From a virus, in the IMG/VR virus record IMGVR_UViG_3300031803_000007, positions 1-26,126 of that record: a DNA stretch of 26,126 nt; one strand, 5' to 3'. Every line of letters begins with the position of its first letter. The first letter of the stretch is position 1. A program made the position numbers and the translations under genes. The notes beneath the pieces are model-generated. The model made no database searches and was not told where the DNA came from. It saw nothing but the letters and a program-made list of their open reading frames with translations. Shown piece by piece: positions 1,754 through 16,477 of the stretch.

Positions 1754-3469
1754 ATGGGATTTCAATTAAGCCCAGGCGTAGAAATCAAAGAAATCGATTT
1801 ATCTACGTCTATCCCCGCGGTTGCTACCTCTTTAGGTGCTACAGTTGGTCGTTTTACTTGGGGGCCGGCTTTCGAGCCGTATTTGTGTACCTCAGAAGCC
1901 GACCTGGTTAGCGTTTTTGGACAACCAACCAACGACACGTATCCAGCGTTTCTTTCTTCTGCCGCATTCTTGAGTTATGCAAATAGCCTTCAAGTTGTAC
2001 GAGTTGTAGATTCTGGAGCGACTAATGCCGCACCTTCAGGAAATGTAACTCAGATTACTGGTGCAGAAGATTTTGAGACACAGATGGACTCTGGTACTTT
2101 GACAGAGGGTTTTTATGCCCGCTATCCTGGTACTTACGGAAATGGCATTAGTGTGGAAACACACAGTGGAGATGCTACTTGGTCTGCTTGGCAGTATGCA
2201 GGTGCATTTGACGTACAACCCGATACTGGTAATGGCGAAATCGCTGTTGCTGTTGTTGTGGACACAGAAGTAGTTGAGACTTATCTTGTAGGTATGACTC
2301 AAGGTACTAACAACGCTGATGGCGGAAACATTTGGGCAGAGGATGTTATTAATCCTGCTTCCAAATTAATCTGGGTGGTTACAAGTAATGTAGTCAATGG
2401 CCCAGGTCCTGTTTCTGTTGTCTTTACAGGTGGAATCGCAGTTTCGGCTGGTGTTCCTGCTCATTGTGATGATGGGACAGGCGCCGACCAAGCAACTTGT
2501 GAAGCCGCTGGCGATACTTGGGTGCTAGAAGTAGCCGCAGGTACTGTTGGTTCTAACGAGTATATGGCCGGTTGGGATAAATTCGAGAACGGTGACGAAA
2601 TCAATGTCAGTATATTAATTGCTGGTGGACTCTCTAACGAGAATTCTGCCCAAGTTGCTATCGTATCTAAGTATATGATTGAGCAGGTTGCAGAGCAACG
2701 ACTAGACTGTATTGCTGTAGTCTCGCCTCCGAAATCAGAAGTTGTCAATGTTGGTGGTGCCACTAACGCTGTCAATAATGTAATCGCTTGGAGAACTGAT
2801 GTTTCTTTTAACTCAGCCTCTTCATACGGTACTCTCGACGGTAACTACAAATACGTTTATGACGTTTATTCTGATACTTATCGCTGGATTGGATTCAGTG
2901 GTGATATAGCAGGATTGATGGCAAGAACTGATGACACAAGAGACCCTTGGTGGAGTCCTGGCGGACTTAATCGTGGTCAGATTAGCGGTGTTGTTAAAAT
3001 AGCGTATCAGCCTTCACGGGCTCATCGGGACCAATTGTATATGCTTCCTAACGGAATCAATCCAATTGTAACCTTTCCAGGGCAGGGAACTGTTCTTTGG
3101 GGAGACCGAACATTGCTAGTCAAACCTAGTGCTTTTGATAGAATTAATGTACGTAGATTGTTCATTATTCTAGAGAAGGCTATTTCAATATCCGCAAAAT
3201 ATTTCTTGTTCGAGTTCAACAACGAGTTTACTCGTAAGAATTTCTTGAATATGGTTAATCCATATCTCAATGGAATTAAAGCGAGACAGGGAATGTATGA
3301 CTTCTTTGTTCAGTGTGATGCTTCAAACAACACGCCAGAAGTTATTGACTCAAATCGTTTCATTGCGAGTATTTTCATTAAACCAAGCCGGTCTATCAAC
3401 TTTATCACGCTTAATTTCGTAGCAACGAAAACTGGTGTTGATTTTGCTGAAGTCATCGGCCAAGTATAG
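1754..3469 (+). CDS. 18: Contractile tail sheath protein
   Basis: Tail sheath protein, 571 residues, shorter than T4 gp18 (659). It polymerises around the tail tube and contracts at infection. The N terminus (GFQLSPGVEIKEIDLS) and the C-terminal region with the ISAKYFLFEFNNEFTR segment are typical of T4-like sheaths; the C-terminal domain forms the conserved inner shell. The start has a good ribosome site (AGGAG at 1742-1746). The middle of the protein, about residues 60-270, is the variable surface part. It carries an odd short insert, residues 238-256, with two Cys ten residues apart and a Trp (C238...C249...W256), resembling a Cys-rich repeat seen in marine phage structural proteins. The tube gene follows after 12 bases. 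Confidence 0.96.
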   Translation: MGFQLSPGVEIKEIDLSTSIPAVATSLGATVGRFTWGPAFEPYLCTSEADLVSVFGQPTNDTYPAFLSSAAFLSYANSLQVVRVVDSGATNAAPSGNVTQITGAEDFETQMDSGTLTEGFYARYPGTYGNGISVETHSGDATWSAWQYAGAFDVQPDTGNGEIAVAVVVDTEVVETYLVGMTQGTNNADGGNIWAEDVINPASKLIWVVTSNVVNGPGPVSVVFTGGIAVSAGVPAHCDDGTGADQATCEAAGDTWVLEVAAGTVGSNEYMAGWDKFENGDEINVSILIAGGLSNENSAQVAIVSKYMIEQVAEQRLDCIAVVSPPKSEVVNVGGATNAVNNVIAWRTDVSFNSASSYGTLDGNYKYVYDVYSDTYRWIGFSGDIAGLMARTDDTRDPWWSPGGLNRGQISGVVKIAYQPSRAHRDQLYMLPNGINPIVTFPGQGTVLWGDRTLLVKPSAFDRINVRRLFIILEKAISISAKYFLFEFNNEFTRKNFLNMVNPYLNGIKARQGMYDFFVQCDASNNTPEVIDSNRFIASIFIKPSRSINFITLNFVATKTGVDFAEVIGQV

Positions 3470-6783: not shown

Positions 6784-7614
6784 ATGAGTCTAGTTAAGTT
6801 CAAAGAGTATGTCAGCGAAGCAATGCGTGTTCCTGTTCTTGATGAGGACAGTGATGATATTGTTATAGTTGAATGGACTGAAGAGGGCTGGGCAAAAAAT
6901 ACTGTAGCAGAGCGAGCCGAACTAGAAGCAGAAGCAGTAAACGGTTGGGCAATGTGGCAAATCGGGGATATAGATGATGATGATGATGGCGAACCCGATG
7001 ATGCGTCAGGTGTATATGAGGGCGAAGAGATTGCAGAGTGGCTTGATTCTCTTGAAGAGCAATGCGATGCTTGTGGAATGGACCCTTGTGAATGCGATGC
7101 GAATGTAGCCGAATGGAATACTGGCAGTCGCCGATGTGCCGGAGGAGATGGTCGTAGAAAACTTGTAAAGGCAGCCAAAGGCGTAATGAAAAGTGGTCTT
7201 GCTGAACGTGAGATGACTAAGGCTGAGTTAGTAAAGCGAGAAGAAATCGTTTTAGAACTAAAAAAAAGAGAGAAGGCCTTCAAAGAAAAGTATGGTGAAA
7301 AGTGGAAAGATGTAATGTATGCCACGGCCACGAAACTGGCCATGAAAGAGGACTTTGATTTAGACGAAGGACCTAAGGCCTACAAAGCAAAGAATACGAT
7401 GCAACGTAGGAAGACCCAAAGGACCAAAGATAAACAGAAGTTTCAAAATCGAGGCGATAAATTAAGGGCCAAGATAGACCGTAAAAAAGGCGGTAATAAA
7501 GTTAAGCGTATCAAGATGAGAAAGAAATGGATGCGTAAGAATAAAGCCAAAATAAAAAATGCACAAAGAGTGTATGGCGGTAAAGTAAAATCTAAATTCA
7601 CTAAGAAAAAGTAG
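6784..7614 (+). CDS. Acidic/basic two-part protein with Cys cluster, unknown function
   Basis: 276 residues with two opposite halves. Residues 1-115 are very acidic (Asp run at 63-68) and carry C94, C97, C102, C104 and C118, a spacing compatible with zinc binding. Residues 155-190 contain KKREKAFKEKYGEKWKDVMYATATK, a block I recognise as recurring in proteins of marine T4-like phages. Residues 199-276 are dominated by Lys/Arg and end in KSKFTKKK. The basic tail could bind DNA or the acidic scaffold; this is inferred. It lies in the prohead cluster between genes 20 and 21. The start at 6784 follows AGAGGGAAAAG at 6770-6780. Not assigned to a T4 gene. Confidence 0.75.
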   Translation: MSLVKFKEYVSEAMRVPVLDEDSDDIVIVEWTEEGWAKNTVAERAELEAEAVNGWAMWQIGDIDDDDDGEPDDASGVYEGEEIAEWLDSLEEQCDACGMDPCECDANVAEWNTGSRRCAGGDGRRKLVKAAKGVMKSGLAEREMTKAELVKREEIVLELKKREKAFKEKYGEKWKDVMYATATKLAMKEDFDLDEGPKAYKAKNTMQRRKTQRTKDKQKFQNRGDKLRAKIDRKKGGNKVKRIKMRKKWMRKNKAKIKNAQRVYGGKVKSKFTKKK

Positions 7615-7625
7615 GAGAGAGTAGA

Positions 7626-7787
7626 ATGGAATGGTTAAAAGACAGATGGTCAGAAAGAACATCCTGGGACGGCGGCGTATTAGTTGGAGTCGGCGTAGTT
7701 AGTTTATTGTTTTCACCTTGGATGACATATGTTGCCTATGCGGCAATTGTTTATGGTGTCTGGACACTAATCAAGAAGGAACTGTAA
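7626..7787 (+). CDS. Small membrane protein (53 aa)
   Basis: Short gene starting at ATG 7626 after GGAGAG and ending at TAA 7785-7787. The first 17 residues are polar with several Trp (MEWLKDRWSERTSWDGG). The rest is hydrophobic (VLVGVGVVSLLFSPWM, then YVAYAAIVYGVWTL) with a KKEL end, which fits one hairpin or two short membrane helices around Ser-Pro-Trp. Spacing to the neighbours is 11 and 17 bases, both with ribosome sites, which supports it as real. Its place before the prohead protease suggests a role in membrane-attached prohead assembly (in T4, proheads are built on the inner membrane), but this is inference. Confidence 0.75.
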   Translation: MEWLKDRWSERTSWDGGVLVGVGVVSLLFSPWMTYVAYAAIVYGVWTLIKKEL

Positions 7788-14912: not shown

Positions 14913-14941
14913 TTGACAACGTATACATAAAACTGTATAAT
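14913..14941 (+). promoter_or_regulatory. Consensus sigma70 promoter for the non-coding region
   Basis: TTGACA at 14913-14918, 17-bp spacer, TATAAT at 14936-14941, predicted start near 14948. No credible reading frame begins downstream for about 500 bases, so this promoter points at the candidate ncRNA. Confidence 0.9.
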
Positions 14942-14947
14942 AACAAC

Positions 14948-15438
14948 ATAATTGTACTTATATCCACCTTGGGATAAACAAGGAATCTGCCTGGAACGAG
15001 AAACCCAGGATTAGTAGCCATTTGGTGAAGTGAGCAGGCTATAATACTCGACATACGAGCCTACTGAGTTGAGGTCTGTAGATTGAAGCATCGTGTACAA
15101 GTGCTAAATATCTGAAAGAAACCGGGTCAGGACACACCACATATTGGTACAGTCCGCTAGAGAGACTTGAATCGACAAGTCGTGGCCAACTGGATAACCG
15201 TAACCAGTCTCTAAGTCTGGCTTGTGTCTTGTAACCAATTCTCATAATACCTAATTAAACTTGATTTGCTCTACCATAAGTATATGCTAAAAGGGATATT
15301 GGTGAGAGGACGAAGTCCTCGAACCAAGTTCTGTGACGAGCGAAGCGAGGAACAGAACTACTTGAAGTAAAGAAGAACTGGCTGATAACTCCTTACCCTA
15401 CCCCTTGGTGGATTACGTCTAAACGCCTCAGGCGTTCG
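14948..15438 (+). ncRNA. Candidate large structured non-coding RNA
   Basis: About 490 bases with no convincing + strand ORF, led by a perfect promoter. Helices seen by eye: CCTGG/CCAGG (14990-15009), CTCG/CGAG (15047-15059), GGAC-ACCA/TGGT-GTCC (15130-15155), GACTTG/CAAGTC (15164-15181), ACTGG/CCAGT (15189-15208), the alternative AGAGACT/AGTCTCT (15161-15167 with 15206-15212), long-range 15129-15136 with 15223-15230, two elaborate hairpins at 15299-15359, and AACGCC/GGCGTT (15422-15436) near the 3' end. AGTA...GAA around GCC/GGT at 15013-15029 could be a bulged-G (loop E) module. Size and hairpin density recall large phage RNAs such as GOLLD or ROOL, but I cannot show homology. I see no tRNA, tmRNA or RNase P signature. 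The ends are approximate. Confidence 0.45.
15299..15359 (+). other. Twin hairpins with GAA triloops and tandem GA mismatches
   Basis: Hairpin A: TTGGT-GA-GAGGAC-GAA-GTCCTC-GA-ACCAA (15299-15327). Hairpin B: AGTTCTGT-GA-C-GA-GC-GAA-GC-GA-G-GA-ACAGAACT (15327-15359). Both place tandem G.A pairs between Watson-Crick blocks and close with a C(GAA)G triloop. Hairpin B contains GCGAAGC, known as an exceptionally stable mini-hairpin even as single-stranded DNA. They share one base and may stack. Confidence 0.75.
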
Positions 15439-15439
15439 A

Positions 15440-15447
15440 TATAAATA
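15440..15447 (+). promoter_or_regulatory. T4-type late promoter for the SET gene
   Basis: TATAAATA four bases after the AACGCC/GGCGTT hairpin. The predicted start near 15453 leaves only 3 bases before ATG 15456, the same geometry as at 11046. Confidence 0.7.
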
Positions 15448-15455
15448 TTTTTATA

Positions 15456-15746
15456 ATGTATCAACCCTTACCTAACTGGATAACTATCAAAGAATCACCT
15501 ATTAGTGGGTTAGGTCTATTCGCTACACAACCTATTGGAAAATCTACCTACATTGGTATTATTCTTATTGAACATAAGGATGAACTTATTCGGACTCCTC
15601 TAGGTGGATTCGGAAACCATTCTGACAATCCAAACTGCGAAAAATTCAAATATAAAGACCGATGGAACCTGATTACAAAAAGAGATATTAAGGTAGGAGA
15701 AGAACTTACCTGGTCATATACCTTATATAATGTCGAAAACCCTTAA
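15456..15746 (+). CDS. Small SET-domain protein (putative lysine methyltransferase)
   Basis: 96 residues, almost only a minimal SET domain. The N-terminal strand motif SPISGLGLFAT is the usual SET opening; GGFGNHSDNPNCEKFKYK supplies the NHS-x-x-PNC element that binds S-adenosylmethionine; KRDIKVGEELTWSY is the GEEL-x-x-Y motif with the catalytic Tyr. It lacks pre-SET and post-SET parts and a clear SET-I insert, so the substrate is open; a phage or host protein lysine is the natural guess. Small SET proteins occur in other marine phages. There is no Shine-Dalgarno site, and a late promoter just upstream predicts a leaderless message. Its last four codons and stop form the first unit of a tandem repeat. 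Confidence 0.88.
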   Translation: MYQPLPNWITIKESPISGLGLFATQPIGKSTYIGIILIEHKDELIRTPLGGFGNHSDNPNCEKFKYKDRWNLITKRDIKVGEELTWSYTLYNVENP

Positions 15747-15770
15747 TAAATGTCGAAAACCTGTAATAAA
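15731..15770 (+). repeat. Two tandem 20-bp repeats at the end of the SET gene
   Basis: TGTCGAAAACCCTTAATAAA and TGTCGAAAACCTGTAATAAA, back to back, differing at two positions. The first unit encodes the last residues and stop of the SET protein; the second lies in the spacer, just before the -35 box at 15774. Confidence 0.9.
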
Positions 15771-15773
15771 TGG

Positions 15774-15802
15774 TTGACATTGTTGAGGGTTTCGTGTATA
15801 AT
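15774..15802 (+). promoter_or_regulatory. Consensus sigma70 promoter for genes 55-47
   Basis: TTGACA at 15774-15779, 17-bp spacer, TATAAT at 15797-15802. The start near 15809 gives a leader of about 27 bases that holds AAGGAG ahead of gene 55. Confidence 0.92.
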
Positions 15803-15835
15803 ATTACTTAATATAACTTGAATAAGGAGTTGGAT

Positions 15836-16477
15836 GTGGCTAAAAACAAATACGCTAATAGAACTCGAATTGGTGAACCTGTAGATAAAGACAACACGAG
15901 TCATTATATCAATAATAAGGAATTTTTAAAGGCTATTATTGACTATCAGGCACTCATTGTAGAGTATGATTTGGCAGGAAAACCCAAACCATACGTGACT
16001 GACTATATTGCTATGTGCTTTCTTCAGATAGCACAGAGATTATCCTATCGACCGAATTTCATTAACTATACATATAAAGATGATATGATATCGGATGGAT
16101 TGGAGAATTGTCTAGCATATATGCACAATTTTGACCCAGAGAAGAGCAAGAATCCTTTTGCTTATTTTACACAGATTATCTATTACGCATTCTTAAGGCG
16201 AATACAGAAGGAAAAGAAACAGCAATACATTAAGTATAAGTATTTTGACCAGAAGGCTGGATTCGAGCAGATGGATGAACTACAGGAACACGATAAGGCA
16301 TCCTTCGATTTTATCAACGAAAGGGGCAGTATCGATTTTCATACACATATAAAGGAATTTATAGACGATATGGAGAAAAAGGAAACGGAAAAGAAAACAA
16401 AAAGAGAATTGAAGAAAGCAAAGAAGGCGAAGCCAAAGGTCGACTCTGCTAATAATCTTGAATTCTTTATGCTATGA
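15836..16477 (+). CDS. 55: Late-transcription sigma factor gp55
   Basis: gp55 replaces the host sigma factor so that RNA polymerase recognises TATAAATA late promoters, with the gp45 clamp as activator. I place the start at GTG 15836, 7 bases after AAGGAG (15823-15828); an in-frame TTG at 15818 would overlap the ribosome site. Length is 213 (T4 185). The diagnostic sigma-2-like block is SDGLENCLAYMHNFDPEKSKNPFAYFTQIIYYAFLRRIQKEKK (about residues 86-128), matching the conserved core of T4-like gp55. The C terminus is Lys/Glu-rich and ends in NNLEFFML, a hydrophobic tail that fits the clamp-binding end of gp55. It overlaps gene 47 by ATGA. Confidence 0.93.
   Translation: MAKNKYANRTRIGEPVDKDNTSHYINNKEFLKAIIDYQALIVEYDLAGKPKPYVTDYIAMCFLQIAQRLSYRPNFINYTYKDDMISDGLENCLAYMHNFDPEKSKNPFAYFTQIIYYAFLRRIQKEKKQQYIKYKYFDQKAGFEQMDELQEHDKASFDFINERGSIDFHTHIKEFIDDMEKKETEKKTKRELKKAKKAKPKVDSANNLEFFML

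Follow-up and report, generated by a model that had tools for sequence, protein, structure and literature searches.

A conserved pseudoknotted RNA ahead of the gp55 gene in a clade of uncultured marine T4-like phages

The locus described here raises the question of what a phage makes from a perfect promoter that leads into a stretch holding no gene. The analysed DNA (the window) is a 26-kb IMG/VR virus record (26,126 nt) with a T4-like gene order, whose closest cultured DNA match, Pelagibacter phage HTVC008M, covers just 1% of the query. Within it, the region at 14942–15455 follows genes for a uvsW-like helicase, a 2OG-Fe(II) oxygenase-like protein and a 138-aa protein, and precedes a SET-domain gene (PF00856) and the gp55 late sigma factor gene (phrog_234). 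An earlier note made from the sequence of the window had described the region as non-coding, led by a promoter and dense with hairpins, and had proposed a new phage RNA, comparable to GOLLD or ROOL and possibly a switch.

A promoter-led region without a gene

The region indeed holds no credible gene, as its longest open reading frames lie antisense and encode 52 and 68 aa. We rejected a coding reading because the frames are short in relatives and gap runs are mostly not a multiple of three. The single-sequence folding energy was modestly unusual (z of about −2 against shuffles); since it lay just about 2 s.d. below shuffles, conservation had to decide. Downstream, the SET-domain gene, which encodes a small protein (15456–15746), is found at this site in the nearest relatives L002 and L003 only, and SET-domain genes also occur elsewhere, Pelagibacter phage Kolga and P-SSM7 among the examples. 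For a phage to encode a SET protein behind a late promoter signal is out of the ordinary. The end of the gene carries a 20-nt tandem repeat, CCTTATATAATGTCGAAAAC, at 15721–15760.

The perfect promoter claimed ahead of the region was borne out (Table 1), and when the 160 nt ahead of the conserved core were shuffled 600 times, a 12/12 score never arose. Of the 34 non-redundant homologues, 32 have a promoter matching at least 10 of 12 positions ahead of the core; a 10/12 match alone is expected in 7–13% of shuffles and a 12/12 match in none. Between the RNA and gp55, nearly all homologues carry a second, near-perfect promoter. The window contains seven perfect TTGACA-N17-TATAAT sites (11611, 14913, 15774, 17744, 19536, 22170 and 23972), all on the + strand. 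They stand mostly ahead of early or replication genes and appear to be a group of early promoters, separate from the late TATAAATA sites. The T4-late-type TATAAATA occurs at 15440–15447, directly before the SET gene; the window has six copies where chance predicts 1.8, and five of the six stand ahead of genes, most of them structural. From this division of sigma70-type promoters and TATAAATA between early or replication genes and structural genes, we infer early or middle expression of the RNA. No intrinsic terminator was found downstream of the RNA in the window, so that the transcript might continue into gp55 and could be a processed 5′ UTR or leader.

Table 1. Features of the RNA locus (window coordinates)
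Feature	Position	Strand	Details
Phage Sm/Lsm-like protein gene, 138 aa	14483–14899	+	Profile match PDB 3by7, E 1.3e-13
Sigma70-type promoter of RNA, TTGACA-N17-TATAAT	14913–14941	+	12/12 match
5′ H-type pseudoknot	14961–14983	+	S1 14961–14965/14972–14976; S2 14967–14971/14979–14983
Conserved core, model R1	14986–15216	+	231 nt; 34 non-redundant homologues
P1 hairpin	14990–14994/15005–15009	+	Pairs 14993–15006 and 14994–15005, E < 0.02, tree-based null
P1.1 small variable hairpin	15017–15026	+	Outer G-U/G-C and C-G pairs in 34/34
P2	15034–15039/15074–15079	+	Encloses P2.1, 15046–15049/15066–15069
P3	15080–15083/15110–15113	+	With P3.1, 15088–15091/15101–15104; pair 15081–15112, E < 0.02
P4	15125–15128/15184–15187	+	100% paired
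P4.1 hairpin	15130–15133/15152–15155 and 15136–15139/15145–15148	+	Covariation test and pair count
P7, crosses P4	15158–15162/15209–15213	+	95.8% paired; 3 double-change cells; weaker than other helices
P5 hairpin	15164–15169/15176–15181	+	100% paired
P6 hairpin	15189–15193/15204–15208	+	E = 0.033; 100% paired
P8 loop contact	15199–15200 (P6 loop) with 15123–15124	+	G-C 29, C-G 5
HP-A 3′ hairpin	15300–15326	+	Comparable hairpin at similar place in many relatives
HP-B 3′ hairpin	15327–15359	+	Inner GARCRAAGYGA conserved; outer stem covaries
gp55 late sigma factor gene	15818–16477	+	phrog_234, E 4e-60; own perfect promoter 15774–15802

Covariation and fold of the RNA

Scans of IMG/VR for gp55 and for DNA patterns identified at least 66 further contigs with a homologous intergenic region, from which we formed a non-redundant set of 34 sequences, including the window, with pairwise identities below about 96%. 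Covariation was scored by a G-test with average-product correction, and the null came from alignments simulated along a FastTree tree, each column receiving as many changes as observed. Ten column pairs reached E < 0.05 against this tree-based null, nine of them base pairs and one not. On a MAFFT alignment, a 53-pair structure (named helices P1, P2, P2.1, P3, P3.1, P4, P4.1, P5, P6, P7 and P8) was paired in 97.3% of 1757 cells, a percentage biased upward by the derivation of the structure from the same sequences. That bias does not explain the double-sided changes, which occurred in 35 of the 53 pairs and amounted to 284 double-change cells, compared with 77 after shuffling and 18–47 after sliding. 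Compensatory changes in aligned homologous intergenic regions, which the earlier note had named as support for an RNA, are thus well above shuffles. Covariation beyond phylogeny across many homologues makes it almost certain, on comparative grounds, that 14942–15455 harbours a conserved structured RNA; with its promoter, its conservation and the lack of an Rfam match (below), the candidate new phage RNA is upheld.

The core is preceded in the window's clade by a 5′ H-type pseudoknot, which was not seen in the other clades, and is followed by two adjacent 3′ hairpins that recur in many members. In the 16 sequences of the window's clade, the 5′ pseudoknot is 96.9% paired, with 30 double-change cells compared with 8.7 after shuffling. 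Within the core, covariation is strongest in P5 (15165–15180, 15166–15179 and 15167–15178). P2 and P2.1 are 94% paired and both show double changes (15047–15068, E = 0.05), as do all eight pairs of P3 and P3.1. The crossing of P4 and P7 forms a pseudoknot, in which P4 covaries significantly (pair 15125–15187 is GC in 16 sequences, UA in 16 and GU in 2; E = 0.033) and P7 is mainly conserved; P7 and P8 are supported by few changes.

Farther 3′, HP-B is 91.9% paired in 15 sequences, with 43 double-change cells compared with 15.2 after shuffling. The motif GARCGAAGYGA is confined to the surroundings of this locus in the long contigs searched, some of which have inverted copies before the gp55 promoter. 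Contig L055 carries GAACGAAGTGAG hairpins at about 2880–2935 and 3060–3112, followed by inverted copies that lie ahead of the gp55 promoter. In L053, the stretch 600–1080 retains GAACGAAGTGAG-type repeats without the RNA and adjoins a DNA-methylase-like ORF fragment.

The individual pairings proposed in the earlier note fared less evenly. Its final hairpin is present at 15417–15440, with TATAAATA just after it and before the SET gene. The 8-bp long-range pairing of 15129–15136 with 15223–15230 does exist in the window, but it clashes with the conserved hairpin P4.1 and is not conserved, as only 60.5% of cells pair across relatives. An alternative pairing of 15161–15167 with 15206–15212 is 70% paired and covaries no better than shuffles, whereas both local stems that compete with it covary strongly. 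Since the competing pairings are not conserved, the idea of a switch is not supported; against it also speak the separate promoter signals of gp55 and SET and an antisense homologue described below.

Phage distribution and comparison with known RNAs

A covariance model, R1, was built from all homologues, including the window, so that the scores it gives them carry no independent weight: 220 bits (E 2e-61) for the window core and 214–227 bits for six homologue-bearing contigs, all of them training-set members. Among six whole cultured phage genomes, R1 found nothing credible, with a sole hit of 15.6 bits (E 0.014) in P-SSM4. A blastn search with the region and two divergent homologues against 50,697 cultured phage records gave no convincing match, and little sequence separates the Sm-like gene from gp55 in HTVC008M, Melnitz and cyanophages. 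Pattern matches in the genome contigs L141–L144 and in L149 were set aside as chance, having no covariance-model match.

The RNA lies nearly always between the Sm/Lsm-like gene and gp55. RNA-bearing phages group on the gp55 tree, with 3 changes needed compared with 20 for shuffled labels, and the RNA is a marker of a single clade of uncultured, marine T4-like phages. L053 and L054 fall within this clade and have no RNA, so that at least one lineage can do without it; L109 has a very long branch on the tree. In L091, the same RNA (7427–7662), with its own promoter, lies away from gp55, between two minus-strand genes and antisense to both. This contig also has a gene for the small subunit of ribonucleotide reductase.

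When the window (E up to 1), the region (E up to 10) and nine relatives were run through cmscan against Rfam 15, no family matched the RNA, so the covariance search suggested in the earlier note places the RNA in no Rfam 15 family. An RtT match on the region (15.6 bits, at E up to 10) was attributed to chance; weak Phe_leader matches lie outside the RNA, and the one in the window falls on an ordinary terminator. GOLLD and ROOL are ornate large phage or prophage RNAs of about 600–800+ nt, often found near tRNA islands (PMC12286853). Another hallmark of the two is that they assemble into multimeric RNA cages. The RNA described here resembles them in being phage-borne, pseudoknotted, of unknown function and, presumably, stand-alone. 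By contrast, its core is about 230 nt, with perhaps about 410 nt in all and about 500 nt from the RNA promoter to the SET late promoter, and it sits between the Sm-like and gp55 genes in a window without a tRNA gene. Neither Rfam model matches, and neither the length nor the tRNA-island setting agrees. The proposed likeness therefore holds loosely, for an ornate phage RNA, and fails on size and on both models; the RNA is a new family that belongs broadly with the ornate phage RNAs but is neither GOLLD nor ROOL.

Other marine T4-like phages carry structured RNAs of different kinds. Methylophilales phage Melnitz, a marine T4-like relative, has a two-piece tmRNA with a glutamine riboswitch (PMC9004378). 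ARAGORN detected no tmRNA in the window, Rfam gave no tmRNA or glutamine riboswitch match, the RNA shows no tRNA-like domain with a tag reading frame, and R1 finds no match in the Melnitz genome. Among RNAs of T4-like cyanophages, which are listed in PMC9602691, CFrI is described as a psbA antisense RNA, and PhotoRC-II and the wcaG motif as cis-regulatory elements; unlike these, the present RNA has no Rfam match, and R1 gave nothing credible on four cyanophage genomes, the best being the chance-like P-SSM4 hit. Riboswitches were sought in a survey of pelagimyophages, which reports none (PMC7029224), and a limited literature search found no earlier description of the RNA.

Possible modes of action

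We favour a stand-alone structured RNA that would act in trans, a reading to which the sequence evidence lends a probability of roughly 60%. The separate gp55 promoter and the antisense placement in L091 argue for it, and a trans-acting early RNA is likelier than a leader or riboswitch. A cis-regulatory leader of riboswitch or attenuator type, controlling gp55 (or SET in the window phage), is suggested by the position of the RNA directly 5′ of gp55 in nearly all contigs, which also counts against a stand-alone RNA, and by its high degree of structure and the absence of a terminator between the RNA and gp55. We nevertheless consider a leader unlikely, because the RNA is followed by a near-perfect promoter belonging to gp55, the window has a SET gene with a late-type promoter signal in between, the L091 copy is antisense to both neighbours, and the proposed alternative pairings are not conserved. 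A DNA element is also conceivable, namely a promoter-driven replication origin like T4 ori(uvsY), whose transcript primes replication: the promoter leads no gene, uvsW and replication genes are near, and an AT-rich stretch lies downstream. RNA-helix covariation that includes pseudoknots is needless for an R-loop origin, and no GC-skew switch was found at the RNA region, which makes an origin highly improbable. Similarly far-fetched is a self-cleaving ribozyme. HDV-like ribozymes have the strand order P1-P2-P3-P1′-P4-P2′, and the P4/P7 pseudoknot with the P5 and P6 hairpins has the same order (P4-P7-P5-P4′-P6-P7′). However, P6 ends at 15208 and P7 starts at 15209, leaving no joining strand to hold the catalytic C; P4 is just 4 bp long, P8 engages the bases 5′ of it, and no Rfam ribozyme matches. 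With the catalytic strand missing, we rejected an HDV-like ribozyme.

The upstream gene raises the idea that the RNA might be the partner of the Sm/Lsm-like protein, whose ring would bind or mature it in a phage-encoded small RNP. The 138-aa protein belongs to a phage family; PDB 3by7, the profile match of that family, was deposited as Sm/Lsm-like and is also the top Foldseek match (E 1e-4) of an alignment-based model with pLDDT 81; the alignment was used because single-sequence structure prediction was poor. An LK[HY]T[GS] subtype of the gene occurs in nearly all RNA-bearing loci and is absent from RNA-less ones. Against a partnership, cultured phages that lack the RNA have the Sm-like gene in this position too, so that adjacency may be inherited synteny. 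L055–L058 have the RNA with another Sm-like subtype, L109 has no Sm-like gene between helicase and RNA, and in L091 the RNA is elsewhere. These exceptions led us to drop a strict link between RNA and gene, and shared ancestry suffices to explain the association with the subtype. An Sm/Lsm partnership therefore seems doubtful; it is a special case of the trans-acting reading, with which its probability overlaps. The fuller proposal of a phage small ribonucleoprotein, in which the RNA, expressed from an early promoter, would join the neighbouring protein and influence transcription or RNA turnover in trans while marine bacteria are being infected, is in our estimation quite unlikely.

For the favoured stand-alone, trans-acting RNA, host RNA polymerase would read the sigma70-type promoter early or in mid infection, and the transcript would begin near 14949 and probably end after about 15360. 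It would then fold into the 5′ pseudoknot (in the window's clade), the pseudoknotted core of about 230 nt and the two 3′ hairpins. The compact core would probably bind a protein, as scaffold or decoy; the partner might be an RNA-binding protein or a transcription factor, from either the phage or its host.

GOLLD and ROOL, structured phage RNAs of unknown function, are a puzzle of long standing. The RNA described here adds a new family, with its pseudoknotted fold worked out, that is held by a clade of uncultured marine T4-like phages in IMG/VR. At about 230–400 nt, led by a perfect promoter and lying next to the gene of a candidate protein, it is far easier to make, probe and solve, and the covariance model lets annotators spot it in viromes and metatranscriptomes.
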